This document shows positions 3,081-55,240 of a stretch of 64,000 nt of DNA, in pieces; position 1 is the stretch's first letter, and each line of letters opens with the position of its first letter. The position numbers and the translations under genes are program-made. Where the stretch lies: contig OX424564.1 in NCBI GenBank assembly GCA_949152475.1, forward strand, positions 682,001-746,000. The letters run 5' to 3'. The DNA is from Terebella lapidaria. Taxonomy: Eukaryota; Annelida; Polychaeta; Terebellida; Terebellidae. The notes under the pieces were generated by a model. It saw only the letters and a list, made by a program, of their open reading frames with translations. It searched no databases and had not been told where the DNA came from.

Positions 3081-6000
3081 GATTCTGGACAAAACGGTCT
3101 ACAATCCAAGTAACAACACACAGCAACCCATCAGCCATGGTGATCAAAAACAGTGGTGTCAAAACATCCCATGTTTGGCATGTACTGGGAACCGCTGGGC
3201 TTGTAGTGTCATTCATCAGCGTCCTTGCAATCTACTTCATGAGGAAGCGTGTTCGAGGTATGTCTACAATCGAGCAAGTAAGCATGGTAGGGGGTAGAAC
3301 TGGCACATGTGACCCGCATCTAATAATACTACTGGACACTCAGTCCAAGCGACGCCGACCACACTGGTGCCCGGGACGAAGACAAACAAGTAATGATTAT
3401 GACCGATTTCCGGGCTGACACACCAACTTATTCTTGTGTATGCACTCTGATACATGAGAGGACCATTATTACATATGATAGCGCACCTAAATACCTCGAT
3501 ATCTTGCTCAAAATCCCATCCAAACATCGCTTATCCTTAATGGAAAAATGTGTGGCCGTTGACAGCCAAGGCTAAGATCAATGTTTGATCAATGTTATCA
3601 ATGTTCAGAGAGATATCGAGGTATTTAGTTGTGCTATTTTTATGTAACTTGGGATTTATCATGTATCAGAGTACATACAAAAAATACATGACAAAAAGTG
3701 CCAGCCCGGAAACCCGCCATAGTCATGATTTGTTTGTATTCGCCCCGAGCACCAGTGTGGGCCATCATGGATGCCCGTCGTTCGGGCTATTGAACACTCT
3801 GCCATGTAGACAGTGCCATTCAGTTTCAATCTCAACATCCTGTAAAATATAACAGGTTGGTAACCGATTCTGTCTGAACTATTTGTGACTAGGCTTTCGA
3901 GGAGACGGTCGAACGATCATTTGTCATCCGAGTCCTTATCCCAGTTTAACAAGAGAGGGAGAAATGGAGACCAGACCGGGTACGGTACGTGGGTGTCTAG
4001 CGTTATTAGTGGTTGAAGTTCCAATCATCTCAATTCAACTCAATCCTACTTCATCTGATCAAATCAGATTATCACTTCTACTTGAATTATAAATACTCCG
4101 ATAGGAAGAGATGCTATTGACACACAATACACACATCACTGGCCCGAGTACGAGCTCGGAGAACACTGATACCTCCAAAAAACGGAACAACAGACTCTAC
4201 ATTCACCAGCAAGCTTAGGGATATCCGGTACTAGTATATCATCTCAAATGTCAAACTCCTGATATTGTTCATAATGCATTTCCTTGTGTACATGTAGTGG
4301 GTACAATACATATCACTGGGAATCCTGCAGCCACATCATCACCTGGCACAGAGCCTGCCCCCGAAATACCAAAGTCCACAGTCACGGGTCAAACCATCCA
4401 CAAAAATCAAGGGGACAATCTGCAGAACATCAACTCCGATTCCTCGAGCCCTAAGATATCCCGTGTGAACATACATGAATATCACACACATGGAGGTGCA
4501 TGCTCAGTGCTGAGAGACCGATAGTGCTATCATTATATTGTATTGGTATACACGTCATGGTACTAGTATCGAGTACTATCTACTAGTATCACCTAAAACA
4601 CCTGATTTGGTTGTGATTATTTTTGCAGATGCTGAGAAAAAATTGCCAAGTGCTGTTCTCAGATCTGTCTCGGAGTCCAGTGTTTCGACAGTGAACAATG
4701 AGCCTGATTGGTCTGCCACTATCCCGCCACAAGCGACTGGGGTTTACCGCATATTACACCTTTCCAGATCATCGGCTGCATACAGTGGCCACTTGCACCA
4801 CTCTGACATGCGGAGAACAGCGGCCCGGTCACACCCACTGGAACAGGCTGAAGAGGTTCAGCAAGAACCTCAGGCAGGATATCGTTACTGTTCGGACAGG
4901 CAGAGAACAGAGGCCCGGTCACACCCGCGGGTACAAGTTGGAGAGGTTCAACAAGAACCTCAGGCAGGATATCGTTACTGTACCGACAGGCAGAGAACAG
5001 AGGCCCGGTCACACCAACTGGAACAAGCTGAAGAGGTTCAGCAAGAACCTCAGGCAGGATATCGTTACTGTTCGGACAGGCAGAGAACAGAGGCCCGGCC
5101 ACACCCACTCGAACAAGCTGAAGAGGTTCAACAAGAACTCCAGGCAGGATATCGTTACTGTTCGGACAGGCAGAGAACAGAGGCCCGGCCACACCCACTG
5201 GAACAAGCTGAAGAGGTTCAGCAAGAACCTCAGGCAGGATATCGTTACTGTTCGGACAGGCAGAGAACAGAGGCCCGGCCACACCCACTCGAACAAGCTG
5301 AAGAGGTTCAACAAGAACTCCAGGCAGGATATCGTTACTGTTCGGACAGGCAGAGAACAAAGGCCCGGTCACACCCGCGGGTACAAGTTGAAGAGGTTCA
5401 GCAAGAACCTCAGGCAGCATATCGTTACTGCTCCGACAGGCAGAGAACAGAGGCCCGGCCACACCCACTGGTACAAGTTGAAGAGGTTCAGAAAGAACCT
5501 CAGGAAGGATATCGTTACTGTTCAGACAGGCAGAGAACAGAGGCCCGGTCACACCCACGGGTACAAGTTGGAGAGGTTCAGCAAGAACCTCAGGCAGGAT
5601 ATCGTTACTGTTCAGACAGGCAGAGAACAGAGGCCCGGTCACACCCACGGGTACAAGTTGGAGAGGTTCAGCAAGAACCTCAGGCAGGATATCGTTACTG
5701 TTCCGACAGGCAGAGAACAGAGGCCCGGTCACACCCACTGGTACAAGCTGAAGAGGTTCAGCAAGAACCTCATGCAGCATATCGTTACTGTTCGGACAGG
5801 CAGAGAACAGAGATCCGGTCACACCAACTGGAACAAGCTGAAGAGGTTCAGCAAGAACCTCAGGGAGGATATCGTTACTGTTCGGACAGGCAGAGAGTAG
5901 AGGCCCGGTCACACCCACGGGTACAAGTTGAAGAGGTTCAACAAGAACCTCAGGCAGGATATCGTTACTGTTCGGACAGGCAGAGAGTAGAGGCCCGGTC

Positions 6001-7311
6001 ACACCCACGGGTAAAAGTTGAAGAGGTTCAGCAAGAACCTCAGGAAGGATATCGTTACTGTTCGGACAGGCAGAGAACAGAGGCCCGGTCACACCCACTG
6101 GTACAAGTTGAAGAGGTTCAACAAGAACCTCAGGCAGGATATCGTTACTGTTCGGACAGGCAGAGAACAGAGGCCCGGTCACACCCACGGGTACAAGTTG
6201 AAGAGGTTCAACAAGAACCTCAGGCAGGATATCGTTACTGTTCAGACAGGCAGAGAACAGAGGCCCGGTCACACCCACGGGTACAAGTTGAAGAGGTTCA
6301 ACAAGAACCTCAGGCAGGATATCGTTACTGTTCAGACAGGCAGAGAACAGAGGTCCGGTCACACCAAGTGGAACAAGCTGAAGAGGTTCAGCAAGAACCT
6401 CAGGCAAGATATCGTTACTGTTCCGACAGGCAGAGAACAGAGATCCGGTCACACCCACGGGTACAAGTTGAAGAGGTTCAACAAGAACCTCAGGCAGGAT
6501 ATCGTTACTGTTCCGACAGGCAGAGAACAGAGGCCCGGTCACACCCACTGGTACAAGCTAAAGAGGTTCAACAAGAACCTCAGGCAGGATATCATTACTG
6601 TTCGGACAGGCAGAGAGTAGAGGCCCGGTCACACCAACTGGAACAAGCTAAAGAGGTTCAACAAGAACCTCAGGCAGGATATCGTTACTGTTCGGACAGG
6701 CAGAGAGTAGAGGCCCGGTCACACCAACTGGAACAAGCTAAAGAGGTTCAACAAGAACCTCAGGCAGGATATCGTTACTGTTCGGACAGGCAGAGAGTAG
6801 AGGCCCGGTCACACCAACTGGTACAAGTTGAAGAGATTCAGCAAGAACCTCAGGCAGCATATCGTTACTGTTCGGACAGGCAGAGAGTAGAGGCCCGGTC
6901 ACACCAACTGGAACAAGCTGAAGAGGTTCAGCAAGAACCTCAGGCAGGATATCGTTACTGTTCGGACAGGCAGAGAGTAGAGGCCCGGCCACACCCACTG
7001 GTACAAGTTGAAGAGATTCAGCAAGAACCTCAGGCAGGATATCATTACTACGCCGACAGGCAGAGAGCAGATTTTCGGTTTCGATCACCAGTACAGGTTG
7101 ACGAGATTCAGCAAGGACCTCAGCCAGGACAACTGAGTAGGATTCCTACAAATGCTTTCAAATTAACCTACATGTATAGCAAATCATGCATTCCAATTTG
7201 CTTGTATTCATGTGTCAATCTCAAATAGATGGTGGAAGTGGGTCTAGCTCCTCTGGTGGAAGTGAGGAATTGGACATTCGATCTGATGGACTATCATCTT
7301 CGAACGTGTAA
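3081..7311 (+). CDS. Single-pass membrane protein with about 26 cytoplasmic 30-residue repeats (partial, 3' exons)
   Basis: I do not recognise a family. Four exons fit: 3081-3257, 4298-4495, 4629-7136 and 7229-7311, ending with TAA at 7309. The first three junctions are all phase 1, and each predicted acceptor restores the open frame. The first exon encodes a short polar segment, then a transmembrane helix (WHVLGTAGLVVSFISVLAIYF) followed by basic RKRVRG, giving an outside-to-inside topology. The second exon is a Pro/Ser/Thr-rich linker. The third holds the 90-bp tandem array read as units containing GYRYCSDRQRTEARSH and QVEEVQQEPQ. The last exon is a Gly/Ser-rich tail ending SSNV. About 988 residues are covered; the extracellular exons are not found and may lie left of the window. 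The donor at 4496 (GTGCAT) is weak. Repeated Tyr, acidic and Gln residues suggest a scaffold or signalling tail, but that is a guess. Confidence 0.6.
3340..3775. repeat. Inverted repeat (foldback/MITE-like) inside the membrane-protein intron
   Basis: Sequence at about 3355-3510 is matched in inverted form by 3607-3765: for example the CACTGGTGC and TTTCCGGGCTG stretches recur as complements. The arms are diverged and separated by about 95 bases. It lies in the intron between the transmembrane exon and the linker exon. No target duplication was identified. Confidence 0.55.
4805..7130 (+). repeat. 90-bp coding minisatellite, about 26 copies
   Basis: The 90-base period is strict, with substitutions but no visible indels, so 30-residue units stay in register. 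Only forward frame 2 is open across the whole array. The frame-3 reading is stopped wherever a unit has GAGAGTAG instead of GAGAACAG (first at 5897), and the long reverse-strand frame breaks near 6550-6740. Variation is concentrated at a few codons (Leu/Arg, Glu/Val, Ala/Val, Thr/Val), and neighbouring units share variants, as expected from local duplication. Confidence 0.9.
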
Positions 7312-33515: not shown

Positions 33516-36500
33516 ATGTCGTCAGATACTTGGAGTGATATTCAGGCTCATAAAAGTCGCCAGAGCAGCTTGCGAGAGAAGATAGCGCGCCGGAGAAAGG
33601 AACGCGAGGAAACCTTTGGTAGCCTGACAGTGTCGCCGACAACCGCAGCGTCCGGCGCCGACGGCTCGGCCTCCGACAGCACCCTGGGCTCTTCCCCTCT
33701 ACAACCCTCGGCCAAACCCCCTCCAAAACTGTCAACTGCCGCTCTGATCGGCTCCCCGCCCACCGCTGCCAAAACAGGTCAGTCAAAAACAGGTCAATGG
33801 GTAGGCCAGCCTGAGCGACGGGTAGTGTCGCTCAGGCTGCGGGTAGGCCTTAGACCCAGGTGTCCCACTCTCTCGAACGCCGAAGGCGTGAGTGGGACAC
33901 AGGTTCAAGCGTTCACGGGTGTCGTACTGGTTTACACTTCGAGCGTGACCAAGCCTCAGATTGCATGACTAGACATCTACCTGGCACCAGTCCAGATTGT
34001 CCTTCGATCTCTTCTGCATCAAATTATGTAGTAGAATTCCTTGGTCACACCCAGCGGAATTCGATCTGAGCATCATTTCAAATCGACATGATAATCCACA
34101 ACTTCTGATTTCGCCATTCCTGGGTGATAAATGACGTGTGCAAACAAGCAATCAGCTCATTTATCGCCCAGGAATGGCGAAATATGGGCCGATAAGCTAT
34201 TGTAGTGGTTTTTCGTCCGTCATCCGTCTTTAACAAGCTACTGCAATGATATTCTCGCAGGCTTAAAATTAGACATTTTTTCCAGGAGCCAAAGGGCTCC
34301 TATTTGCCTTCTATTCAACAAAGCACATTTCAATATTAGTTTACAGATTTTCATTAGCCAATTGACTCGTGGGCTCTATTGCTTGGGAGCAAATCTGAAC
34401 GTTTGGGAGCATATGGCTACCCACAAGGGGCAATTTTGTGCCCCGTATTCTCGAATATTCTGCACTGCAACTATACAAGCTGTATGGACACTTGTTTGAT
34501 TTCCTGAAAATACGCTGTGCTTATTAGGTTACCGGACCTATGGTCTGATAACCTATTGGCATGACGTTGCGTCCGTCGTCCGTTGTCCGTCGTCGTCGTC
34601 CACATTTTTATCTTCTTTGTTTACGGGCGAATTCTTCTGAAATTTTGCACAAAAATGCTTAAAAATAATTCGAGAAGGAGTTTTTAGTTTTTTGATTTTT
34701 GCATTTGTTTCAAAATGGCGGCCGTTTTCGACGAAAAATGCCTGATTTTGGACTTTGGCGGCCATTTTCTCAAAATCTGTTCAGTAACTTTTTTTCTTTT
34801 AGACATAACACTCCTCATATGTACTCCTATGATGTCTATAAAGTGGGCCATTTTGGCCCGAACTGGGCCCAAATGGGACTTTCCCATGTTAAATTCTCCT
34901 ATGCTTTATAATGGGACACATTATCATGATTATGTCTAATATCTCACTTAATATTGAGATTAGAGATTAGGAATCAATTGTGGACATAATCGCTTATTAT
35001 TAGGGCATTTCGGCATGAAATGCCCTTATGGTTTTGTCTGTTTTTTTTGTTTTTTTTTTGTTTTTTTTTTTCTTCTTTTTTTTTTCACTTTCCGCCGTTT
35101 TGGTTTCCGATCAATAACTCGGGAACGCCTGAACGGATCTTGTCCAAATTTACACCACTGGTCAGAAATATTACATGGAAGACCCCTATTGTTTTGGAGG
35201 TGGCTCCGGGGTCCGTGAGGTCCGTGAGGATGAAATCAAGGTTGATTTTGAGACTTGGTTTCCGAGCGATAACTCAAAAAGTATTCATGCAATGGCAAGT
35301 ATTCTTTGCATGGGAGTTCATATACAATGTACCACCACGGAAGAACCCTATTGATTTTGGGGTCAATCCGTCGAACAACCTTTGACCTAGAGCTCGGAAG
35401 AATTTTTGCTGATTCATCCTTGAGGCTTTCATGCATATCTTGGAAACGGTGCGTCGTAGAGCGAAACGGAGCTCAATTTCGGCCTCCTGGCACTAGACAA
35501 ACTAGTCTAGGGGGTATCTAGGGTCGAGACGACCCCTGGTGTCGAATTTTTTTTCGCCGACTCGGCACTTCCTGTTTGGCCGTATCTCGGAAACGGTGCG
35601 TCGTAGAGCGAAACGGAGCTCAATTCCGGCCTCCTGGCACTAGACAAACTAGTCTAATGGATATCTTGGGTCGAGACGACCGCTGGTGTCGAATTTATTT
35701 TCGCCGACTCGGCACTTCCTGTTTGGCCGTATCTCGGAAATGGTGCGTCGTAGAGCGAAACGGAGCTCAATTCCGGCCTCCTGGCACTAGACAAAATAGT
35801 CTAATGGGTATCTTGGGTCGAGACGACCCCTGGTGTCGAATTTATTTTCGCCGACTCGGCACTTCCTGTTGGCCGTATCTCGGAAATGGTGCGTCGTAGA
35901 GCGAAACGGAGCTCAATTCCGGCCTCCTGGCACTAGATAAACTAGGCTTATGGGTATTTTGGGTCGAGACAACCCCTGGTGTCGAATTTATTTTCTCCGA
36001 CTCGGCACTTCCTGTTTGGCCGTATCTCGGAAACGGTGAGTCGTAGAGCGAAACAGAGCTCAATTCCGGCCTTCTGGTACTAGACAAACTAGTCTAGAGG
36101 GTATCTTGGGCCGAGACGTCTTCTGGTGTCAAATTTTTTTTTCGCCAACTCGGCACTTCCGGTTTGGCTGTATCTCGGAAATGGTGCAAATCGGAAACGG
36201 CCTCCTGGCACTAGGCTGACTAGTCTGGAGGGTATCTTGGGTCGAGATGACTTCTGGTGTCGATTTTTTTTTCGCCGACTCAGCACTTCCTGTTTGCCAT
36301 ATCTCAGAAACGGTCTGTCGTAGAGCGAAATGCAAAGATGCCTAAGGGCGGGGTATGTCACTTAAACTTTGACCACGGACAGTTCAGAGTCATCATGGTT
36401 CTAGACGCGGTCTCTTAGGTATATGTTAGGTAGGAATAGAACTCACACGAAATGCCCCAAGGCATCTTCAGGCCTTGACGTCTAGTTAACTTTACAGCTT

Positions 36501-39500: not shown

Positions 39501-42500
39501 TACAACACTCTGTGGTATAGCAGGACAATGTATTGCCAAAATAAGGTAAAAATAAAGAATAATAAGTACTTACTGTCCTTACTGTATGCTTCCATTTGTC
39601 GTTGTCATGGAAAGTCGGTGACATTTTTGTCTAGTGCATGCAAAAAGACACCTTGGGTATTTTCTAAAACAAGACATAATGTAACAATGGGACCACACAG
39701 CGATTTGTCCCTTCACAATATTTGTGTCCATATTAAATATGAACAAAGACGGGGGAGGGTTGTGAACTTGTGAGCCCTCTCCTGTTACATCATACCTCCA
39801 ACGTAAATTAGGATTCTGAATTTCTGATTTCACCCATGTTTACATTTGCATGCTTTATAAATTGCTGTAAGCATGGTTGCATGGTGATTTATAAGGAAAA
39901 CTCGTTGACAGATAGTGTCTGCAGTGATCACTAACGAACCAATTCATGTGTACTATTGTTTTGAAGCTACGAGTTTATTCCCGGTTCCATTCCCGGGTAC
40001 CCGGTTCTGAGCACTTTTTATTCCCGGTTCCCGGTTCCAGGAAAACCGGGAATATATTAAACCCTACTAATATCTCCCTTATTATCGATTTTATAGCTTA
40101 GGAATCAATTGTGAACATATAGAAAATGCTTTACACTGAATATCGCCGTGACCTTGAATTTGACCTTTGACTTCATTTTCAAAGTCAAAGGACAAAATGG
40201 CTGATATCTCACTTTATTGACTTCATAGTGTGGGAATCAATGAAAAACATAGGAAGTGTTATGCGCCAAATATTCTGATGACCTTGAATTTGACCTTTGG
40301 CTTCATTTTCAAAGCCACAGCACAAAATTGCTAATATCTCTCTGATTATTGATTTCGAAGCTTAGCAATCAAAATTTGCTAATATCTCTGTGGACATGAT
40401 AATTGCTAAATATTATATATGCTGAATATTCTCTTGACCTTGGATTTAACCAGTGTCCTGGCTAACCTCTAAAATATTAAACATATATTGTCCGGTAACC
40501 TATCTTTGGCCCTTGGCCTAATTTAATAAATTTGCGAAAAAAACAAAAATTGCCAATTGTCAATATTGAATATTATTCTGGTCTGGTCACCAGATGACCA
40601 GATCATGTACTGTAAAATGACTAATTTTGGCGGCTATTAAATTTGGGAGTCGGAGCCCCGTATTATTTGGCGGAGATTTAATTTGGCGGTTTCAAAACCA
40701 CATATATTTCTTATCATATATCTAGTTAATTTGGCGGTTTTTCCCTACCGCCAAATCCACCAAATAAATTGTATGCCAAAATTAGTCATTTTACAGTAGA
40801 TAGCAAATGACATTATATAACTACATGGTGTTTATACTGTATTGATCATTTGTTGTATTGCAGATCATGTGAGCACTCCAAGCAGTGGCAGCAGTAAGCA
40901 GGAGCCCGTGCAGCAGTCCCTGTCCCCCGACACTCTCCAGCAGATAGAACAACATCTCCTTGTGATGCTGAGTGACATCACTCTGGTCCTCCCGGTCGAG
41001 GTCTCAAGTCTCATGTCCAGTATGACAAAGACACTCAGAAGAGATCCACACTTGTCTACACTCGCTGACCGTATCAACACTGATGCTGCACGCTCTGCCG
41101 TCGAAGATTTACTCAACAAATTTGCAGCACAGATGCTCATAAGGTAAGCCATTTCTTCTGTTTAGCATTCTGCAAATACCAGTATTTATTCCTGAAGGTT
41201 TTAATTCACAGATTTGCAGTCAGATTGTCTGCAGTATCCATGGTATCCTGTGTATTCAGTAGTATTTGGATAAAGGATTCCTTTCATTTTCATGATTACC
41301 TGATCACCTGTCACAAAGTTCTTCCGCCCTGACAGTTTGGAATACAGCGTAGAAGACCAGAACACAACACTGGTTGTAGAATCTGTAGACTATAACAAAG
41401 TGAGTCCACATGCTCAGCTTAAGGATACACCATTACCTGTATGTAGTTCTATAATCATGATCATGATTATGCATGCTATTTCTGACATACAGCTCTCAGC
41501 CGTCACAAATGAAATGGATTGGTTTCAAGATGTGTTTTCAAGAAAAAGAAAAAAAGACAGGTAAAGTTCAAGTTACTTGATTTTAGTATTGTAAAGAAAT
41601 TTAGAATTTCTTGCAAGTATAGGTGCTTGTAAATAACATTAGGATCACTTCCTTATATCTCTATAATAAAGAACTGCGAATTAGCATAATAAAAAAAATG
41701 TAGCAATATTACTCAACTCTATGTAAAGTATGCAGTGTTCATTATTTTCAGTGATGAAAGTGAAGTCGACAAAACCACCAAGCAACAGAGGACGGACAGA
41801 CACGACGAAGATTTGATTGAGGTGGGTTCATTGCTGTGTCTAGATATGAAAATATCAAATATTATCGGACAGTGTACTGACCTTGAACTTGACCTCAGAT
41901 GACCTTGTGTGGTAAATCTCAAGGTCTCCTTTATATATGATATAGTGGATGTGTTGGTGACTTTGAACTTGACCTCAAATTAACTTGAGTAATAATCCCA
42001 ATATCAAGTTCAATCTAAATCTGCAAATAAGCTTCGGCACCCGTGGTTAAACTGGTGTGTTTCTTTCCTCAGAACCTTCTGTCAATGGAATCTGCGAAAC
42101 AGAGGGAAACCAAGAAAACCCGCGACGAAATCTTACTTCTGCTCAGTAAACCAACAGCGAAGGTAATCATTGTACATCCAAGACCATATCATATGTAGGG
42201 AATCTATTGCGGACCTTGAACATAACCTCATATGTAACCCGTCATTTTAGTCTATAAAGCACTACCATTCAGACAGATAGCATTCCCTGATGAAGCTGTC
42301 AAAGACAGCGAAAGGCCTCGGAAGACCGGAATTCTTATCATGAGTGTTTTCACACATTCGCCTGTTTTATGCGAGCATGGCCTCATATGACCTTGAGTGT
42401 TCAAAACCAAGGTTATGTTCCAAGCAGAAATTGCTTGGAAACATTTACCATATTTGTGTCATGAATGCACAGAAAGATTATGTCATCTTGGACAACCTTG

Positions 42501-45500
42501 AGCTTGATCTTCCGTGAACCCCATTTGTCTGGTAACCAAATATTTGTTTGGACCATAATTGGAGGGCAACAACATGCAGGCGAATAGGGTGACTCTGAGC
42601 CTGACTTCATACATGTATGGGCAGTGGCCATCTGAATACTAATCTCTATCTGGCAACTGATTGAGCCCCATGAGCATTTTCTGATTTCAGGAGCAGTCGC
42701 TGATAGAGAAGTTCAAGTCACAAGGAGGTATGTTGTATTATCATGCAGCAGTTGTTTGACAAGTACATTGTAATGGAAATCTTGTTTAACTGTTTGTTTA
42801 ACCAACTCAACACTGGTACTCGTTACTTTTGTAATATCGTATCGGTTCAGTACACGGTTAGATTACAGTACAATATGATGAGAGATGTTCACATGGCTTT
42901 GACTGTACCTGTAAATGTTGATGTGTCAGATTGAGAAGTGTATTTTGTGTCCTGCAGGTGCGCAGGTGAAGGAGTTTTGTCCAAACGGAACTAAGGAGGA
43001 ATGTAAACGAGTTAATGTGTCCTCGTCACCTTGTGATAAACTCCACTTCAGGAAAATTCTCAGCAAACACACAGATGGTAAGGGTGTATAGACCGTGAGA
43101 TTATCATAACTTGTATTGTATCCACCCTCCTATATTGAACACAGACAGTGAGATTATCATAACTTCTATTGTATCCACCCCTCCTATATTAAACACAGAC
43201 AGTGAGATTATCATAACTTCTATTGTATCCATCCCTCCTACCGGTATATTAAACTCAGTGAGATTATCATAACTTCTATTGTATCCATCCCTCCTATATT
43301 AAACACAGACAGTGAGATTATCATAACTTCTATTGTATCCATCCCTCCTATATTAAACTCAGTGAGATTATCATAACTTCTATTGTATCCATCCCTCCTA
43401 TATTAAGCACAGACAGTCAGATTATCATAACTTCTATTGTATCCATCTCTCCTATATTAAACACAGACAGTCAGATTATCATAACTTCTATTGTAGCCAC
43501 CCATCCTATATTAAACACAGACAGTGAGATTATCATAACTTCTATTGTATCCATCCCTCCTATATTAAACACAGACAGTGAGATTATCATAACTTCTATT
43601 GTATCCACCCCTCCTATATTAAGCACAGACAGTCAGATTATCATAACTTCTATTGTATCCATCCCTCCTATATTGAACACAGACAGTGAGATTATCATAA
43701 CTTCTATTGTATCCACCCCTCCTATATTAAGCACAGACAGTCAGATTATCATAACTTCTATTGTATCCATCCCTCCTATATTAAACACAGACAGTGAGAT
43801 TATCATAACTTCTATTGTATCCATCCCTCTTATATTAAACACAGACAGTGAGATTATCATAACTTCTATTGTATCCATCCCTCCTATATTAAACACAGAC
43901 AGTCAGATTATCATAACTTCTATTGTATCCATCTCTCCTATATTAAACACAGACAGTCAGATTATCATAACTTCTATTGTATCCATCTCTCCTATATTAA
44001 ACACAGACAGTCAGATTATCATAACTTCTATTGTATCCATCCCTCCTATATTAAACACAGACAGTCAGATTATCATAACTTCTATTGTATCCATCTCTCC
44101 TATATTAAACACAGACAGTCAGATTATCATAACTTCTATTGTATCCATCCCTCCTATATTTAACACAGGCAGTCAGATTATCATAACTTCTATTGTATCC
44201 ATCCCTCCTATATTAAACACAGACAGTCAGATTATCATAACTTCTATTGTATATCCATCCCTCCTATATTAAACACGGACAGTGAGATTATCAGAACTTC
44301 TATTGTATCCATCCCTCCTATATTGAACACAGACAGTGAGATTATCATAACTTCTATTGAATCCATCCCTCCTATATTAAACACAGACAGTAAGATTATC
44401 ATAACTTCTATTGTATCCACCCCTCCTATATTAAACACAGACAGTGAGATTATCAAACTTCCATTGTATCCATCCCTCCTATATTAAACACAGACAGTCA
44501 GAATATCATAATTTCTATTGTATCCTTCCCTCCTATATTAAACACAGACAGTGAGGTTATCATAACTTCTATTGTATCCACCCCTTCTATATTAAACACA
44601 GACAGTGAGATTATTATAACCTCTATTGTATCCATCCCTCCTATATTACACACAGACAGTGAAATTATCATATAACTTCTGTCATCACAGCAGAGCGTAA
44701 AGTATGAACCCCTTGTTCAGCTAAAATACACTTTTGTGTTGGCAGAATCTCTGGGGGACTGTTCGTTCTTGAATACATGTTTTCACATGGACACATGTAA
44801 ATATGTGCATTATGAGATAGACTACCCCGACCATCTACCTACCGAGAGCAAGGCAGGCGGATTGACAACACTCAAGTCCACGCAGGAGTCCACGATTCTC
44901 TTCCCTCCACAGGTGTGGTGATGTGATGTCATGTTATCACATCAAAGATAAACCCACTTATAATACTTCAAACCTACCAACAAAATTGAAGTGCTGACAA
45001 GTGATAACTGAATATAAAAAGTATTTTGTGATTGATCTTTGTCCAGTGGATCCAGTGCGACCTGCGACTATTGGACATGACGATCCTGGGCAAGTTTGCT
45101 GTGGTAATGGCCGACCCACCATGGGACATTCACATGGAGCTGCCGTACGGTACGATGAGCGACGACGAGATGAGAAAACTCCAGGTCCCCATCCTGCAGG
45201 ACGAGGGCTACATCTTCCTCTGGGTCACTGGCAGGTAAAGGGATAAAGTTCCTCACGTGTTACCGGCGGGTAAAGGGTTAAGTTTCATACCTATCACAGG
45301 TAGGTAAAGGGTTAAAGTTGAAATCAATTTTAAAATCAGGAAAAACCAGCATTCTTGTTTGTCACGCAAACTTGAGAGTACATCTCGAGATTGCCAGGAA
45401 TAAACAGGAAACATGTACAACTCGACGACAGATATTCAGAATATCGCCTTTAACTGTGCATGAAAACATTGGATAGAGAATGATCGGCCTGCATTCATTG

Positions 45501-48500
45501 CCGATTGCCACAGTATCCACACTAATACCAATGACTGAGTGTAGAACTTGCCCGCAACGCGGCACATGATATGCACATGATACATATTTTCGGACCAAAA
45601 CTTGCACAAATTCTCATTCTATAGACAAAATCTAACTATTGCAGACTGAATAAATTTTGTCAATTCTAAAAGTGATTATAGCTTTAAAGGTTCTCACATG
45701 TTACTGGCGGGTAAAGTTTCATACCTATCACTGACACGTGTTACCAGCGTGTAAAGGGTTAAGTTCCTCATGTGTTGCCGGAGGTTAAAGGGTTAAGTTT
45801 CATACCTATCACTGGCAGGTAAAGGGTTAAAGGTTCTCACGTGTTACCGGCGTGTAAAGGGTTAAGTTCCTTATGTGTTGCCGGAGGTTAAAGGGTTAAG
45901 TTTCATACCTATCACTGGCAGGTGAAGATCTCTATTCCTGTATAATTCTGGTATCTATAATCTATGTCTTACACTACAGTACATTACACTTCTACCTTGA
46001 TGTATCTTTAGTTTTGTTACAACAAATAAGTTGCACATGTACAATGTAATCATTAAGTATTCATTTAAAATCCTAGTATTGATTGACATATTTCAGAGCC
46101 ATGGAGTTAGGCAGAGAATGCTTACAGCTGTGGGGGTGAGTACATTCCAACCTTACACGTATTTGTGCCCAAATCCTAGATATTGTCACCATAGTAACAT
46201 GGACATGGTGTGTCTTCTAGGTACGAAAGAGCGGACGAACTGATCTGGGTGAAGACGAACCAGCTGCAAAGAATCATTCGTACAGGAAGGACAGGTCACT
46301 GGCTCAATCACGGCAAGGAACACTGTTTGGTAAGTGACTCCGGTCAGAAGGAGAACATCTGTGTGTGGTCCCCAAGACACGTCTCAAAACCTATGGCGAC
46401 CGTGTCTTCAGCAAATCTGGCCCATTGTGTTAGAATAATCTTCCTGTTGCAGTCTGATCCAAAGACACTCTTCCTGCCTTTGAAAGAGGACTAAAAGCAT
46501 CAATTTTCTCAACAGCATATCGAAATGTTCGCTAAATTAATTAATATCATTGTCGTCATTGTACATTATATCTATGTAAAGTGCTCCGAGCAAATTTGTT
46601 TGGAGAAGCACTATACAAGAATTTGAAATACATACATACGTACAAGTATATTTCTGCTGTGCGTTTCCCAGGATTACCTGGAATATATGCTCCATTGTCA
46701 TGTTTAAAAGGCGGTCACAGATATTGACAGCTTGGTGTTTGTTGTTTGTCTGAAGTTGCAGCCAGTGGTGCCCCAGCGTAAGAGGGTCAGAACTCTAAAT
46801 CTCCGGCTGGTATTTATTACACAGATTGGCGTGAAGGGCAATCCCAAGACCATGAACCGTGGGCTGGACTGTGATGTTATAGTGGCCGAGGTACGTGATC
46901 TTATAGTGGTCGAGGTACGTGATGTTATAGTGGCCGAGGTGTGGGATGTTATAGTGGCCGAGGTGTGTGATGTTATACTGGCCGAGGTACGTGATGTTAT
47001 ACTGGTGGAGGTACGTGATGTTATACTGGTGGAGGTACGTGATGTTATAGTGGCCGAGGTACGTGATGTTATAGTGGCCGAGGTACGTGATGTTATAGTG
47101 GCCGAGGTACGTGATGTTATAGTGGCCGAGGTACGTGATGTTTAGGCATGTAAATCGGTGGGAGATTTTGATATCGATGATCGTTGCCTTCCACCGAGCG
47201 ATCATCGATCATCGAATCTGACCCTTGACTCGGCAATACTCGCGCTTGTTGATGGGCAATATCGGCTGGAACCGCCACGGTCACTGAGGCGCTAGTGCCA
47301 TGATACGATGGTGGGGTTAGCATGTATTATAGGGCACAGGAAGAAATAAATGAATAAACCACAAGGTTTTAATAATAGTCCAAAAAAGTTGTTTGGTAAT
47401 TGATGATCCGAGTCAAAAATAGCAATGTTTGAAGAAGTTTCATTCGAATCATCAAATGTGGAGCCATTTCACACCTCATGTGTATCCACACTACACGGTG
47501 CACATACGCAGCAAAAATAGTCCTCAACAATCCCCAAGATTAGATCATAATTCAAGCAATATACTTCGCCTAATCCTTTTGAAAAATCTGCATAAATTCG
47601 TTATGGAAACATGCGGTGAAAACAATTTGCATTACGGTCGGCACCCACCGGTCTGACACAGGCTGCATAGACGTGCTGTAGGAGTTCTCTCGATGTATTC
47701 ATACGCGGCTACAAAACAAGAACTAGCTTTTTAAAAAAAGGCGCACGGCCAAAACTGCCCACTCACGAAAATATCCGAAACAATTTACGATATGAAAAAA
47801 ATCGATTCCAAGTATTTCACATCGATCATCGCTCGGCCCAGTACAATCGATCGATCATCGATATCATCGATTTATCGTTACATGCCTAGTGATGTTATAC
47901 TGGTGGAGGTACGTGATGTTATAGTGGCCGAGGTACGTGATGTTATAGTGGCCGAGGTACGTGATGTTATACTGGTGGAGGTACGTGATGTTATAGTGGC
48001 CGAGGTACGTGATGTTATAGTGGCCGAGGTACGTGATGTTATACTGGTGGAGGTACGTGATGTTATAGTGGCCGAGGTACGTGATGTTATACTGGTGGAG
48101 GTACGTGATGTTATAGTGGCCGAGGTACGTTATGTTATAGTGGCCAAGGTACGTGATGTTATAGTGGCGGAGGTACGTGATGTTATAGTGGCCGAGGTAC
48201 GTGATGTTATACTGGTGGAGGTACGTGATGTTATAGTGGCCGAGGTACGTGATGTTATAGTGGCCGAGGTACGTGATGTTATACTGGTGGAGGTACGTGA
48301 TGTTATAGTGGCCGAGGTACGTGATGTTATAGTGGCCGAAGGTACGTGATGTTATAGTGGCCGAGGTGTGTGATGTTATAGTGGTCGAGGTACGTGATGT
48401 TATAGTGGCCGAGGTACGTGATGTTATAGTGGATGAGGTGTGTGATGTTATAGTGGCCGAGGTGTGTGATGTTATAGTGGCCGAGGTGTGTGGTGTTATA

Positions 48501-49738
48501 GTGGACGAGGTACGTGATCTTATAGTGGTCGAGGTACGTGATGTTATAGTGGCCGAGGTACGTGATCTTATAGTGGCCGAGGTGTGTGGTGTTATAGTGG
48601 ACGAGGTACGTGATCTTATAGTGGTCGAGGTACGTGATGTTATAGTGGCCGAGGTGTGGGATGTTATAGTGGCCGAGGTGTGTGATGTTATAGTGGCCGA
48701 GGTACGTGATGTTATAGTGGACGAGGTACGTGATGTTATAGTGGCCGAGGTACGTGATGTTATAGTGGTCGAGGTACGTGATGTTATAGTGGCCGAGGTG
48801 TGTGGTGTTATAGTGGACGAGGTGTTGTGTGTTATAGTGGCCGAGGTGTGTGATGTTATAGTGGCCGAGGTACGTGATGTTATAGTGGACGAGGTACGTG
48901 ATGTTATAGTGGACGAGGTAAGTGATGTTGTAGTGTCCGAGGTGTGTGATGTTATAGTGGCCGAGGTACGTGATGTTATAGTGGACGAGGTACGTGATGT
49001 TATAGTGGACGAGGTACGTGATGTTATAGAGGCCGAGGTGTGTGATGTTATAGAGGTCGAGGTACGTTATAGTGGCCGAGGTGTGTGATGTTATAGAGGT
49101 CGAGGTACGTTATAGTGGCCGAGGTACGTGATGTTATAGTGGACGAGGTATGTACCACGTACATGGTTACGTATTTGACAATTCGCATGTTTCACTTTCT
49201 AGGTGCGTGCCACGAGTCACAAACCTGATGAGATTTATGGCATCATCGAGCGTCTGTCCCCAGGAACACGTAAAATAGAACTGTTTGGTCGACCACATAA
49301 CGTTCAACCAAACTGGTAACGGTCCAGCAAAATTATGCAAATATTCCTCAACTCTATTGAATTGTTTACCCTGAGTATTCAGCATCAGCGGTTATGCTCG
49401 ACTCAAACATTCATGTGTCACTGTGCTCGAATGGCCTTTGAACAGTAGTATTGAATTAATGACTCTTTCGAAAACTTATCAAGGCCAACTTGACTTGAAA
49501 TTTTTGACCCGTAAATAGCTATTACATTTAATTGATATACTGAGAAGATGTCCAAAGGTAACTCATGTTTCAAACATATACATGTACTTCCACTGTTGTA
49601 CATCTCAGGTTTTCAGTAGCATGTTCATTGTTGTGTTCCAGGTTTACCCTCGGAAATCAGCTTGATGGAGTCAAACTCAATGAACCAGACGTTGTCAAAG
49701 CTTTCAAAGCCAGATACCCGGATGGCAAGTGTATGTAG
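33516..49738 (+). CDS. METTL3: METTL3, N6-adenosine RNA methyltransferase catalytic subunit (14 exons)
   Basis: METTL3 transfers methyl from SAM to adenosine N6 in mRNA, in a nuclear heterodimer with METTL14. Exons: 33516-33777, 40864-41143, 41336-41560, 41752-41821, 42073-42162, 42691-42727, 42958-43077, 44746-44912, 45047-45234, 46097-46135, 46221-46329, 46825-46890, 49203-49315, 49642-49738. All have GT-AG borders and keep phase, giving 620 residues (human 580). The N-terminus [20 protein letters not shown] matches the family leader helix. The zinc-finger domain has C329, C337, C347, H351 and C367, C373, C379, H383. The catalytic motif DPPW is at 440-443, followed by [35 protein letters not shown] and [13 protein letters not shown]. 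Exon 12 ends at LDCDVIVAE. All hallmark residues are present. Introns 7, 9 and 12 hold tandem arrays and intron 1 (7.1 kb) nested transposons. Exon 3 may contain a 54-bp intron (41439-41492). Confidence 0.95.
33800..34183. repeat. Hairpin-rich segment in METTL3 intron 1
   Basis: Three inverted repeats in a row: CAGCCTGAGCGAC with its complement (33807-33840), TGTCCCACTC with GAGTGGGACA (about 33860-33900), and a 27-bp stem at about 34109-34183 (TTCGCCATTCCTGGGTGATA, complement on the far side). Related fragments recur near 31370 and 57297. Confidence 0.5.
35000..36486 (+). mobile_element. Helitron2-like family B element with 147-bp tandem repeats
   Basis: The 5' end TTAGGGCATTTCGGCATGAA, with AATGCCC, is a hairpin. 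The 3' end has CGAAATGCCCC, then an imperfect AAGGC...GCCTT hairpin and GACGTCTAG. Between 35430 and 36340 about six copies of a 147-bp unit occur (TCTCGGAAACGGTGCGTCGT, CTGGCACTAGACAAACTAG). It sits inside a tandem unit of family A, whose sequence resumes after it. Confidence 0.6.
37147..40066. mobile_element. hAT-type element with 8-bp target duplication, itself interrupted
   Basis: Ends TAGGGTTTAAT and ATTAAACCCTA are inverted; CTAATATC flanks both sides (37139-37146 and 40067-40074), interrupting a family A tandem unit. Subterminal sequence is rich in CCCGGGAATTCCCGGG-like palindromes. Most of the interior (37271-39446) is a later family A insertion; the rest (39447-40066) has no recognisable transposase. 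Confidence 0.8.
37271..39446 (-). mobile_element. Helitron2-like family A copy (reverse orientation)
   Basis: Reads AATTAGCCCAAGGGCTAA at the left (inverted 3' hairpin) and AGGTCCGGTAACCTAA at the right (inverted 5' end), with GGACGGACGACGG next to it. The interior has about 2.5 tandem copies of a roughly 440-bp unit (TTTCAAGGTCATCCAAGGTC, CAGCTCCCATTATGAAGGAA, AAAATGGCCGCCACACGGAG). It lies inside the hAT element. Confidence 0.6.
40610..40796. mobile_element. Mariner-type MITE just upstream of METTL3 exon 2
   Basis: TA-flanked, ends CTGTAAAATGACTAATTTTG and CAAAATTAGTCATTTTACAG. It ends 67 bases before exon 2. Confidence 0.75.
43090..44680. repeat. 54-bp minisatellite in METTL3 intron 7, about 29 copies
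   Basis: Units contain TTAAACACAGACAGTGAGAT, TATCATAACTTCTATTG and TATCCATCCCTCCTATA. The period is 54 with a few shorter units. Long frames through the array (for example 43673-44272) are artefacts of the period being divisible by 3. The array begins about 13 bases after the exon 7 donor. The AACACAGACAGTGAG part resembles the exon 7 end plus donor (AACACACAGATGGTAAG). Confidence 0.9.
45225..45926. repeat. Interrupted array in METTL3 intron 9 built from the exon 9 end and donor
   Basis: The end of exon 9 with its donor (CACTGGCAG|GTAAAGGG) is repeated in the intron: exactly at 45811-45827, as CACTGGCAG|GTGAAG near 45914-45926, and in modified form (TTACCGGCGGGTAAAGGG, GCGTGTAAAGGG, GGAGGTTAAAGGG) in between. 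Units alternate GTTCCTCACGTG and GTTTCATACCTATCAC linkers. An unrelated segment (45320-45690) splits the array. Confidence 0.8.
46873..49150 (+). repeat. 24-bp minisatellite spanning the METTL3 exon 12 donor, about 60 copies
   Basis: The unit is the last 18 bases of exon 12 plus the first six of intron 12, ending GTGGCCGAG|GTACGT. About 11 units run from the exon to 47142 and about 52 units from 47889 to 49150, split by a hAT-like insertion. Variants include GTGTGT or GTGTGG in place of GTACGT, and TGGTGGAG or TGGACGAG in the exonic part. Because 24 is divisible by 3, the exon frame stays open through the first block (to TAG at 47143). Confidence 0.95.
47143..47888. mobile_element. hAT-like insertion inside the METTL3 splice-donor array
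   Basis: Ends TAGGCATGTAA and TTACATGCCTA are inverted, flanked by GTGATGTT at 47135-47142 and 47889-47896. This 8-bp target duplication falls inside one repeat unit. Subterminal sequence is rich in ATCGATCATCGAT motifs on both sides. No transposase. Confidence 0.8.
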
Positions 49739-50066
49739 ACAGTCCTGACATGATCTGTGATGTCTTGAGGAAAGTGTAAGGGACTCCCTGATCATAGAGA
49801 CCTAACGACTGCGACCGAGGACAGGAGCAGTTTGTGTCTACAGCAGGACACTCCTTGGGCGTCAAATATCGCGGCCTTGTCAGAGATTTGTTGCTGGACC
49901 AAGTGGATGCAATCCTGAATGGATGTTTGTTCAAAAATATGAACATGTTTACAGTATGAAATATACAAAAGTACATGTACTTGTCAAGCAGCACAGCTTG
50001 TTGTCAAGGCTGTGATGTGATGCATGTTGATGTATGATGTTTTTGCCAGTGGATGTCTTTGTAGCA

Positions 50067-50072
50067 AATAAA
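50067..50072 (+). terminator. METTL3 polyadenylation signal
   Basis: AATAAA, 329 bases after the METTL3 stop codon. Confidence 0.6.
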
Positions 50073-50148
50073 TATATAAACAGATCTTGTATGTTTATAT
50101 CCATTGTCTGCTGGTATCGGATCACGAAATGTTCTACTTGGTCATGAG

Positions 50149-50154
50149 TTTATT
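50149..50154 (-). terminator. Polyadenylation signal of the C22orf39-like gene
   Basis: TTTATT on the + strand reads AATAAA on the minus strand, about 41 bases beyond the minus-strand stop at 50195-50197. Confidence 0.6.
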
Positions 50155-50194
50155 TGCAAATGGTTATGTACATAACATTGAGATGATTTACATG

Positions 50195-50619
50195 TCATAA
50201 GATGGTACAAGTTTGTCTTGATTCCTCTATGGCTGGAAGTTTGACGCGGCCCGTGTTCTCGGGCAGAGGTTTGTCCCAATCGGGCGGCGGTGACGTTCTG
50301 TACTGCCAGACGTCATTGTTCCTTGCTGCTGTCAGACGATCTCGTCTTCGTTCCAACTCATTGTCAATGATCCTTCTCTGTGGGAGTATGACAATAAGGC
50401 TACTACCAATGTAGTACCAAGAGGAATTCTAAATATTGGTATCGTTAAGTTTCGGAGGATTTGACAATTTATATTTATTTATGACCGAGTTGTAGGCCAT
50501 TTGGCTCACAGCAATCTCAGATGATCGAGCCTTCCTGTATTCCAGACAGTTATCATAGTCCTCCTTCCACTTGGAGCAGTCTAACTCCTTCCCACGAGTG
50601 TAGTTCTGGTGAAAACGCC
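50195..50619 (-). CDS. C22orf39-like (UPF0545 / PANTS family) protein, last two exons
   Basis: Two minus-strand exons, 50619-50510 and 50377-50195, join in phase 0 (donor GTGAGC, acceptor CCCACAG). The first reads RFHQNYTRGKELDCSKWKED followed by YDNCLEYRKARSSEIA, with the spaced Cys and Trp pattern of the family. The second has a helical arginine-rich stretch (NELERRRDRLTAARNN), then VWQYRTSPPPDWDKPLPE, matching the C-terminal SPPPDW-x-x-PLP signature of human C22orf39 (a small protein linked to synapses and mitochondria). The tail here is longer than in the human protein, ending CTIL. The 5' exon, entered with one base of split codon, was not found; it lies upstream on this strand. The gene is tail to tail with METTL3. 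Confidence 0.75.
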
Positions 50620-50690
50620 CTTTGAAACCTCAACAAAGTATATATATTCATCAGCAGTAGCCTACACCTTGAAAATTAAATGCAGAAGTA

Positions 50691-52513
50691 CCGTATTGGT
50701 CCTAATAGTGGCACGCCCCCTGATAGTAGCACGCCCCTCTCTGTTCAATTTTTAGGAAGAGCAGAGCTCTTCCTCTATGATGTTGGTTTTTTTTGGATTT
50801 TGGAGAATTTTCCTTTGTTTACATTTCTGAAAGTCCGACTTGGAGCCAGAGCAGACCATTCAATTGTGGCTAATTATGAGGGCCCGGGGCCAGTTGGAAA
50901 GAATATGACACCCGCGTACCCAAGTATGGTTACTGTAATAAGTTATAAGCAATAATAGCCACAGGAGACGTGTGTTCCGACCGTTTATTTTTTTTGTGTG
51001 TCATCGTTTCATCACCCATCACCACTCCCGTTTTGATCTTCTCTGAAACAGGGCTTTCTTGTATCAGATGCACTCAAAATTTTGCATAAACATTCCACAC
51101 TACATAGATAGTACATAAGCTATTGCAAAAATGGAAAAACGCTTGATACGGCAACATAATAATTGAAAACTTGTGGCAAGTGCTGGTATGTCCAGTAGGC
51201 CAAATGCAAATGAGAGTGGCCCCCTCCTAGTGGTTGTTCGCGAGGCAGCCAGCCACACTCGACCCGCTTCATCCCCATTCCGCACCACCTCTTCCCCCCC
51301 TCCCATCCGACTACAACCCAATCGTGATAAATGAAAGCTGGCCCGCACCCGGGTAAAAATCAGGTCTGCTGAATGGTCCGATGAGTTTTCTGACTTTTCT
51401 CGCATGAATATATCGCTAGGCCTAAACTATCTGCAAGATCGCAATCGGCGATTACTGATGCATTTCAGAAATAAGATCCACCTCGAGAGATCATATATGC
51501 CGATGACAACAAGTTCACTTTCTTCAATATGCCTCCCCCTCCTCTTCCACCTAAACATCGCTGTTCGTTGGGTGAGCGTGCCTCATAGCCTAATGAATAA
51601 TTAATGAGCTGTGACATTGTTTAGACAATTGTTAGACAATTAACAAGACATATAACATGTCTACTGATGGAGATAAAAAATAAACCGATGGGTAAATACT
51701 AATTAGGTCTATCATTGACCACAGTAAATTTAATTAAGACATAAAACATTTATTATTGGGCACAATAAGGTAAAGGTTCTGTCCACTACATAGTTTGCGG
51801 GGGGGGGGGTGATAGGGCTACGGGAGATACACTCCAGCAGTCGTCAGCGACTGGAGAACATCTAGTTTGGAAGATGGGACTAGATGGAATCAGTACCTTA
51901 ATAATGGTATCAATCAATTTACATTAGGCCAAATCAACAATAGCAAATGATTGGCCAGTACAATATCATGGGCTACAGTTACAATATGGCCACAACATAT
52001 ATGTACCGAATAGGATGCGAATAGGTTTTGAACTAGTTCTGTGCAAACATTTTCAAAGCTCTTCCTATGAGGCCAGTGGCCCTTGTTGTATCCGTGTAAC
52101 TAGTATTTCACTTCAGATCTTTCTAATAAACTCGTGGAGTGTTCCAAATCACCCATTTATGTTATTTGAAAATGGAATTAAAGGCTATACGAGCCATCCG
52201 TCCTAAATTCGCTGCATTCCCAAATTCGCCAACAGCATTTTCAGGCTCTATTATGTGTTTCAGAGCACTCGGTTATATCATTAATCGAGAGTCTAGTGTC
52301 CTATCTGTTTACCAGCAATTTGTTTTCCACAAGGACAGCTTCTATGCTTTGCTGATTTGCAGTTGGTGAACTTAGGGATGCGGCGAATTTTGGACGGATG
52401 GCTCGTAGGTATAATTTTCAGTGATTTTCCTAAATTTGACCTCAAATTTTACGTCAGTTTTGCTCATGCTAATGCTGCTTTGGCATGCCGTACTACTATT
52501 AGGACCAATACGG
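50691..52513. mobile_element. Non-autonomous DNA transposon with TA target (1.8 kb)
   Basis: Inverted ends CCGTATTGGTCCTAATAGT (50691) and ACTATTAGGACCAATACGG (to 52513) are bordered by TA on both sides. No transposase frame. Most of the interior (50775-52090) is repeated downstream at 52703-55240, so the interior itself is a repeat family. Confidence 0.6.
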
Positions 52514-52702: not shown

Positions 52703-55240
52703 AAATGATGTTGTTTTTTTTTGGATTTTGGAGAATTTTCCTTTGTTTACATTTCTGAAAGTCCGACTTGGAGCCAGAGCAGACCATTCAATTGTGGCTA
52801 ATTAGGAGGGCCTGGGGCCAGTTGGAAGGAATATGACACCCGTGTACCCAAGTATGGTTACTGTCATAAGTTATAAGCAATAATAGCCACAGGAGACGTG
52901 TGTTCCGACCGTTTTTTTTTTTTTTGTGTGTCACCGTTTCATCACCCATCACCACTCCCGTTTTGATCTTTTCTGAAACAGGGCTTTCTTGTATCAGATG
53001 CACTCAAAATTTTGCATAAACATTCCACACTACATAGCTAGTACATAAGCTATTGCAAAAATGGAAAAACGGCTTGATACGGCAACATAATAATTGAAAA
53101 CTTGTGGCAAGTGCTGATATGTCCAGTAGGCCAAATGCAAATAAGCGTGGCCCCCCCTAGTGGTTGTTCGCGAGGCAGCCAGCCACACTCGACCCGCTTC
53201 ATCCCCGTCCCGCACCCCGTTCCCCCCGCATCCGGGTAAAAATCAGGTCTGAATGTCTGATGAATGATCCGATGAGTTTTCTCGCATGAATATATCGCTA
53301 AACTATCTGCAAGATCGCGATCGGCGATTACTGATGCATTTCAGAAATATGATCCACCTCAAGAGATCATATATGCCGATGACAACAAGTTCACTTTCTT
53401 CACGATGCCTCCCCCCTCTGCCACCTGAACATCGCTGTTCGTTGGGTGAGCGTGCCTACGGTGGAAGAAAATGGAACATGGAAGAAATATTTTTTGACAT
53501 ACGGTTATTGCGTTCCCTCGCAATAATATTGCGTTCCCTCGCAATATTATCGCGTTCCCTCGCAATCCGGATCGCGTTCCCTCGCGATATTATTGCATTC
53601 CCTCGCAATCCGGATCGCGTTCCCTCGCGATCTTATTGCGTTCCCTCGCAATCCGGATCGCGTTCCCTCGCGATCTTATTGCGTTCCCTCGCAATCCAGA
53701 TCGCGTTCCCTCGCGATATTATCGCGTTCCCTCACGATCTTATCGCGTTCCCTCGCATTCTGGATCGCGTTCCCTCGCGATCTTGTAGAATAACCTTCTC
53801 AGAAGTCATTGGCGTCAGCACAATGCGAGGGAACGCGATCCAGAATGCGACGGAATGCAATAAGATCGCGAGGGAATGCGATCTGGATTGCGAGGGAACG
53901 CGATCTGGATTGCGAGGGAACGCAATAAGATCGTGAGGGAACGCGATCCGGAATGTGAGGTAACGCGATAATATTGCGAGGGAACGCAATATTATTGCGA
54001 GGGAATGCGATAATATTGCGAGGGAACGCAATATTATTGCGAGGGAATGCGATAATATTGCGAGGGAACGCAATATTATTGCGAGGGAACGCGATAATTT
54101 TGCGAGGGAACGCAATAACAATGTGCTAAAAATATTTCTTCCATCAGAGGCTCCGTACGTGCCTCATAGCCTAATGACATCGCGAGATACTGCAGCACTT
54201 AATACAAAAATAAATCAATTGATCATAGCTTATCAACCATCTTTTAAAATCGATGATTTGTTGGTTGAGTCATGTTTCAAGCACTCGATTATTTTGTGCA
54301 TGATAGGTAACTAGTAATTAGGTTACTAGAATCATACACAAATGATCAAAGCAAAAATCGCCAGTCGAGTTCGTAATGCAGCAATCACATCATCACGTTT
54401 ATCACAAAACTTTATGACAGTTCTCATCATAATGACCCGCACAACTTTCCTGTAGGGGCCTACTGCATGCTGCAAGAGCGCCATCTGTTGAATGTCACGT
54501 ATGATCAGATAGGCCTGTGATTTGCTACACCACTATTATTGGTTGCATGGGAATCGTGATGTGGCATTCTGAGCTGTGTAATTTGGACATATAACATGTC
54601 TACTGATGGAGATAGAAAATAAACCGATGGGTAAATACTAATTAGGTCTATTATTGACCACAGTAAATTTAGTTAAAACATAAAACTTTTATTTTTGGGC
54701 ACAATAAGGTAAAGGTTGTGTCCACTACATATTTCATGACTGTAACCGAATAGGTTAACATTAACTTTCCTAGTTGTGTCTATTAGGGCCGATTGACCAC
54801 AATAAAAAATAGTTAGGACATGAAACATTGACTATTAGGTTCAAGATAAAGGTTCTGGTAAATATAAATTTGATGCTTGTAGTGGTTGTCATATTACGAA
54901 AATAAGTTAACATCGATTTTTGCTAGTTGAATCTATTAATAGTTTGGGGGGGGGGGGGGGGGGGGATTTTTGTTTGGGGACACTCCAGCAGTCGTCAGCG
55001 ACTGGAGAACATCTAGTTTGGAAGATGGGAGCAGATGGAATCAGTACCTTAATAATGGTATCAATCAATTTTATATTAGGCCAAATCAACAATGATTGGC
55101 CAGTTGGTACAATATCATGGGCTACAGTTACAATATGGCCACAACATATATGTACCGAATAGGATACAGTATTCGAGGGTTTTGAACTAGTTCTGTGCAA
55201 ACATTTTCAAAGCTCTTCCTTTGAGGCCAGTGGCCCTTGT
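52703..55240. repeat. Second copy of the 50.8-52.1 kb segment, with insertions
   Basis: Direct-orientation copy of 50775-52090: shared landmarks are GGAGAATTTTCCTTTGTTTA, CCACAGGAGACGTGTGTTCC, CACACTCGACCCGCTTCATC, ACATGTCTACTGATGGAGAT and AGCGACTGGAGAACATCTAG. A foldback element (about 53457-54152) interrupts it where copy A reads GCGTGCCTCATAG, and other stretches are unique. A run of 20 G lies at 54946-54965. Confidence 0.75.
53457..54152. mobile_element. Foldback element with arms of regularly spaced 12-mers
   Basis: The left arm has 13 copies of GCGTTCCCTCGC (53510-53790) separated by 9-10 bases. The right arm has 14 copies of the complement GCGAGGGAACGC (53825-54115), so the arms pair into a long hairpin around a 35-base centre. 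The outer edges GGAAGAAATATTTTT and AAAAATATTTCTTCC are also inverted. Comparison with the uninterrupted copy (GCGTGCCTCATAG near 51576) shows a 6-7 bp duplication CGTGCC(T). No transposase. Confidence 0.75.

Follow-up and report, generated by a model that had tools for sequence, protein, structure and literature searches.

How the 5' splice site of a conserved coding gene comes to be followed by dozens of copies of itself, and whether these copies serve the gene or are merely tolerated, is the question raised by a tandem array in METTL3 of the annelid Terebella lapidaria, which lies in the window analyzed here (the whole 64,000-nucleotide stretch of DNA). The parts of the locus, in window positions, are:

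40864..49738, + strand: METTL3 gene as resolved by in-frame joining at AG/GT borders and by homology, 14 exons without its 5' exon(s)
46825..46890, + strand: exon 12, 66 nt, phase 0, ending ...CDVIVAE, its last 18 nt supplying the exonic bases of the seed unit
46891..46896, + strand: authentic intron 12 donor GTACGT (U1 duplex of -6.0 kcal/mol for GAG|GTACGT)
46873-47142, + strand: array block 1, 11 donors (the authentic one and ten more), each in phase 0 and open as far as exon 13
47143..47888, no strand assigned: 746-bp DNA transposon copy that splits the array, with terminal inverted repeat TAGGCATGTAA and an 8-bp target duplication
47889-49150, + strand: array block 2, 55 AG|GT sites with three phase shifts, none reaching exon 13 in frame
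49203..49315, + strand: exon 13, acceptor TTTCACTTTCTAG

When joined, the 14 exons form a single stop-free frame of 501 aa closed by a TAG stop codon at 49736-49738, and the match of this frame to solved METTL3 chains (E 2.3e-184) makes the identity of the gene as METTL3 certain by sequence similarity. A protein search (7988 candidates scored, 2907 passed) yielded, among the best 120 of 2907 listed, an unnamed entry on a 1893-base contig as the top match by E-value (73% identity in the alignment), a shorter, rearranged record of Lamprigera yunnana, presumably a beetle, as the second (84% over 38% of the query), and Paralvinella palmiformis (Annelida, Terebelliformia) as the third (70% in the alignment). 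These relatives are in keeping with an annelid source. The METTL3 frame is intact when spliced at 46890, the join of exons 12 and 13 corresponding to human E506|V507 as counted from the alignment with solved METTL3; VAE and VRATSH are contiguous, with no insertion between them, in 18/18 homologues aligned (18 of the 120 listed).

The repeated unit is 24 bp long and combines 18 exonic bases, which encode DVIVAE, with 6 intronic ones; it begins inside exon 12 at 46873, and the exon end plus donor reads ...GATGTTATAGTGGCCGAG|GTACGT. With TRF, a 24-bp period was detected in 11.3 copies at 46871-47142 (93% matches) and in 53 copies at 47889-49150 (88%). Cutting the units at each [GA]AG|GT gives 11 donor-like sites in block 1 and 55 in block 2 (66 in all). 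Their spacing is 24 bp apart from a single step of 25 bp and, towards the 3' end, two irregular stretches of 18/6/19 bp. Unit statistics refer to the 63/66 units in register (at most 6 mismatches to the exon copy), the other 3 being left out. The exon copy is the commonest unit: 21/63, itself counted, are identical to the exon end plus donor, the other 62 have a mean identity of 93% to it, and 22 distinct unit variants are present in the array. GAG|GTACGT occurs at 45/66 sites (authentic donor counted), and AG|GT is invariant in 63/63 in-register units, the spacing revealing no unit that lacks it. Array and insert together occupy 98% of intron 12. A search of the genome (761.6 Mb, 438 contigs) for the unit at no more than 2 mismatches returned 46 matches, 46/46 inside this array, and a control with the reversed pattern returned 0; a dispersed satellite or a transposon-borne origin was rejected on the grounds that the unit was found at no other locus. 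Several points of a preliminary description of this DNA are borne out, namely that the unit is the exon end plus its 5' splice site, that most units keep GAG|GTACGT, and that a phase 0 intron 12 is combined with a 24-bp period; its proposal that the exon 12/intron 12 junction was the seed of the array agrees with the uninterrupted join in the homologues and with the confinement of the unit to this place.

The same description gave about 60 in-frame tandem copies (46873..49150). The number holds (63 in-register units, 66 sites), whereas the common frame does not. Nor is the array continuous, being interrupted at 47143-47888 by the transposon, which that description does not mention and whose 8-bp target duplication GTGATGTT is found at 47135-47142 and 47889-47896. 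Terminal inverted repeats, the 8-bp duplication and multiple copies are all present, as in hAT-like elements, a placement that we make by target-site length only, following what we take to be the rule. At least 30 full-length copies exist genome-wide (30/49 matches listed), of which at least 18 share 99-100% identity, this copy counted in both cases and both numbers being lower bounds from 40/60 candidates scored. Judged by sequence, the family is young and moved recently; from its size, the element would be non-autonomous. Once the transposon and one copy of its 8-bp duplication are deleted, the flanks join into a perfect 24-bp unit, and in this reconstructed empty site the first 29 donors share one frame. 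Because the transposon brings an in-frame stop at 47143, only 11/66 donors (the authentic one and ten others) reach exon 13 in frame at present, and the other 55/66 meet a stop before it. In-frame METTL3 products from block 1, suggested earlier, would accordingly be possible from 11 donors.

The best explanation, to which we assign a probability of roughly 0.78, is that the intron 12 array is a boundary-seeded minisatellite, or 'mirage', that probably grew neutrally and is mostly neutral for splicing. The unit spans the boundary, its repetition is tandem, local and of minisatellite size, and AG/GT is kept. A short tandem duplication across the METTL3 exon 12/intron 12 junction (18 + 6 bases) would have started the array, slippage and unequal exchange would have amplified the 24-bp unit until intron 12 was filled, and a recently mobile terminal-inverted-repeat transposon would later have split the product. 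Growth presumably ran from exon to intron; this is the simple reading, since protein constraint acts on the exon and the array was found at this locus alone. The spliceosome would mostly use the authentic donor at the end of exon 12 (66 nt), the remainder of the array would be intronic ballast kept because it is tolerated, and block-1 donors, which would add 8n residues to METTL3, may be used at a low level as noise. The internal order of units, with B-C-D repeated across both blocks and an A-A-F pattern as well, carries likely signs of unequal exchange, and internal duplications suggest past instability of array length.

The composition of the units is compatible with such growth. Among the types of codon change, 18/20 are nonsynonymous and 2/20 synonymous, no higher than the chance expectation (19/72 possible single changes are synonymous), and the units appear from these changes to evolve without coding constraint, in a neutral-like manner. 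The absence of stops in the units is uninformative because just 1/72 possible changes makes one. A Pfam search of the block-1 ORF found no family, and a coding repeat domain as a selected feature was rejected on this result together with the lack of coding constraint and of any insertion in the 18 homologues. A gradient among units with distance from the exon was not significant (Spearman 0.17, p = 0.19). The invariance of AG|GT might hint at selection on donors: if 9/24 positions are invariant by chance, the probability that all four fall there is p = 0.012 (post hoc). The single frame of the first 29 donors in the reconstructed empty site likewise counts against the neutral reading.

Boundary-seeded minisatellites were found described mainly in amphioxus. 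In the available part of one account, mirages of the amphioxus Adh3 and globin genes are tandem repeats that straddle an exon-intron boundary at one end or the other; many of their units, though not all, carry AG/GT, and haplotypes differ in length; RT-PCR is said there to suggest that regular splicing is undisturbed, cryptic use being held possible (PMC3087553). The accessible portion of another account adds TnC and PGBD5 mirages and states that Adh and TnC mirages give no aberrant mRNAs (PMC3902484). As far as these excerpts go, boundary-spanning units, AG/GT signals and conserved coding genes are common to the amphioxus mirages and the METTL3 array, and repeats occur at donors and acceptors alike, the latter in a CCT1-like gene of the present genome. 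The METTL3 array differs in its annelid host, in its size (63-66 units vs. 3 and 6 in two BflGb6 haplotypes), in its in-phase 24-bp unit and in its interruption by a transposon. Human internal tandem repeats at exon-intron boundaries are described, in the text available, as changing gene structure and possibly forming novel introns (PMC2812944). They share the boundary location with the METTL3 array and are variable; the excerpted description concerns recently duplicated primate genes and 4 units on average, whereas METTL3 is a conserved gene in which the intron was already present. Repeat-rich introns and exon 4 duplications are reported, in the part accessible, for earthworm metallothionein genes (PMC12783039). 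A search of the open full-text literature by titles and abstract beginnings, mostly without subscription papers, found no METTL3 or annelid mirage.

Further arrays lie at or close to boundaries in METTL3 and in one gene of a survey of CCT and kinesin genes:

45215..45930, + strand: second donor-seeded repeat, in intron 9; 34-bp unit with 20 nt from the end of exon 9 (FLWVTGR) and 14 nt from the start of intron 9
43090..44672, + strand: intron 7 array, 54 bp x 29, 95% of intron 7, beginning 13 bp downstream of exon 7
C16:33972000-33984300 (L012, L013): three boundary-linked arrays in a CCT1-like gene

The intron 9 repeat is a second donor-seeded, junction-spanning case in METTL3, with about 10 diverged copies by eye in clusters at 45215-45319 and about 45690-45930; the exon 9/intron 9 junction scores against a downstream copy above all 3000 random segments. 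When the intron 7 array was examined for exonic homology as a third exon-seeded candidate, 7.7% of random segments scored as well. The survey used 45 of 53 PF00118 matches, at 8 CCT gene locations (8 were dropped as intronless, isolated or on contaminant-like contigs), and 70 of 151 PF00225 matches, in 20 kinesin gene regions (those on contaminant-like contigs or in unfetched regions were dropped). Arrays were scored when no more than 60 bp (CCT) or 80 bp (kinesin) from a profile match, so that the edges of unmatched exons are missed. The gene on contig C16, which we take to be CCT1-like from its sequence motifs, bears three arrays. The first, 38 bp x 34, is acceptor-seeded at the exon RESDITKERI, and 17 of its copies agree with the boundary probe in at least 19/24 positions. 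The second, 32 bp x 4, follows shortly after a donor, and the third, a 20-bp array, extends over 2.3 kb and by eye starts at the apparent donor of an exon missed by the profile. The other seven CCT-like locations had no array of at least 3 copies within 60 bp of a match, and the 70 kinesin exon matches in 20 regions had none within 80 bp, three two-copy repeats being present. Two candidates were set aside: a kinesin two-copy repeat at C7 falls within the intron next to its border and does not span the boundary, and at CCT locus L014 an array of 17 bp x 20 is some 100 bp away from the intron edge.

Exons with boundary-linked arrays number 3/14 in METTL3 vs. 0/70 in kinesins (p = 0.004), and those with exon-spanning arrays 2/14 vs. 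0/70 (p = 0.026), both comparisons being biased because METTL3 was not picked blind. In this small sample, the process looks recurrent but clustered in some genes. A stronger reading, which we hold to be rather unlikely, is that boundaries in certain genes of this lineage are recurrent minisatellite seeds through a junction-linked, gene-specific mutational process, which could also supply dozens of equal donors and 8-residue METTL3 inserts that vary with the length allele; its basis is the two donor-seeded repeats in METTL3, the acceptor-seeded one in the CCT1-like gene and three that abut or lie close to donors. Other boundary-linked periods (34, 38, 32 and 20 bp) would break the reading frame and the 54 bp of intron 7 would not; as most are frame-breaking, the multiple of 3 in the 24-bp unit may be accidental.

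The minisatellite of human IFI6 (6-16) reportedly provides multiple splice donors, a finding credited to Turri et al. (1995). In the available part of a further source, three mRNA species are said to arise through two downstream repeat units that serve as donors (PMC4526556). As excerpted there, it resembles the METTL3 array in being a tandem repeat across an exon's donor and differs in that its units are reported as donors in mRNA, whereas 11/66 in METTL3 could give an open frame; the two are not homologous. By analogy, the IFI6 case is a functional counter-precedent to the splicing-neutral reading. Nor is neutrality obvious from the splice signals, since in U1 pairing the extra donors equal the authentic one, which is the third weakest of 13 METTL3 donors (GAG|GTACGT, -6.0, against a range of -5.0 to -9.9 kcal/mol). 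The strongest array donor (GAG|GTAAGT at 48918, block 2) reaches -10.2 kcal/mol; as most sites match the 9-mer of the real donor and one is stronger, sequence alone gives no reason for the first donor to prevail. It is unlikely that the units are used recursively or as acceptors, because array AGs lack a pyrimidine tract (6-8 pyrimidines in the 15 nt upstream vs. 11 at the true acceptor).

Block-1 donors might be used to insert 8, 16 ... 80 extra METTL3 residues between DVIVAE and VRATSH, by which m6A writing would be tuned and the isoform spectrum set by allele length. All 11 block-1 donors being in frame and stop-free to exon 13, array donors as strong as the authentic one, and the IFI6 units said to act as donors in the portion available (PMC4526556) speak for this proposal, which we nevertheless consider improbable: 0/18 aligned homologues have an insertion at the join, the unit peptides are unconstrained, the period is not a multiple of 3 in most of the other boundary-linked arrays of this genome, and amphioxus mirages are said in the accounts accessible to splice normally (PMC3087553, PMC3902484). 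More improbable still is a brake on expression, in which use of block-2 donors or retention of the array would place the stop at 47143 before the exon junction and lead to decay of METTL3 mRNA, donor competition setting the METTL3 level. The 55/66 donors that meet a stop before exon 13 and the location of the strongest donor (-10.2 kcal/mol) in block 2 would suit such a brake, but before the insertion 29 donors shared one open frame and, the stop belonging to a young transposon copy, the brake would be very recent.

It is highly doubtful that the array serves by binding much U1 in unspliced RNA, as a magnet or recognition decoy that blocks premature polyadenylation or delays splicing. The 66 AG|GT sites have U1 duplexes of -5.3 to -10.2, the 396 GTs at 40001-46800 (which include true donors) having a median of -1.5, and AG|GT is invariant, both as expected of such a role; against it, the acceptor-seeded CCT1-like array would not bind U1, so that array growth needs no U1 function. 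On balance, functional ideas (splicing, isoforms, U1) are, on the sequence evidence, unlikely as the main story. Least credible of all is an artefactual copy number or order of units, since, hard as tandem arrays are to assemble, the contig (C11) measures 41.6 Mb, 22 distinct unit variants stand in order, the transposon inside the array has a perfect target duplication, and further boundary arrays occur in the same genome.

The very large METTL3 array, in a conserved gene of a phylum other than that of amphioxus, the second one in METTL3 and the acceptor case in the CCT1-like gene suggest that the process is wider than thought. Boundary-seeded growth of the kind we favor for intron 12 would be a source of intron growth and possibly of intron gain, and the METTL3 array offers a natural experiment in which the spliceosome chooses one donor among about 66 similar ones.

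Some minor observations were made in the assembly and the window. Kinesin region L023 has 23-bp arrays about 250 bp or more from the profile match, and among METTL14/METTL4-like loci, arrays of 21 bp x 12 and 25 bp x 2.8 are present at L043 and a 134-bp array at L047. Several in-frame TAA/TAG codons lie inside long matches on small contigs with kinesin matches (C414, C351, C182, C120, C179 and others) and on contigs with MT-A70 matches (C386, C353, C418, C39); the small contigs of this kind may derive from contaminant or symbiont ciliates in which TAA/TAG = Gln. G+C is 0.30-0.33 for loci L041, L042, L044, L046 and L050. Tandem repeats alike in their 147-bp period occur at window positions 35436-36187 and at L010, L014, L015, L017, L038 and L043. 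A tRNA search of window positions 40000-52000 found none. At 4805-7129, a 90-bp x 25.8 array lies in an 896-aa ORF of 30-residue repeats, the opposite strand also carrying long open frames; two Pfam scores above the cut-off for this ORF look spurious because no single stretch passes. At 53505-54118, two 21-bp-period arrays in opposite orientation (TTATCGCGTTCCCTCGCAATC / TGCGAGGGAACGCGATAATAT) form a large inverted tandem repeat.
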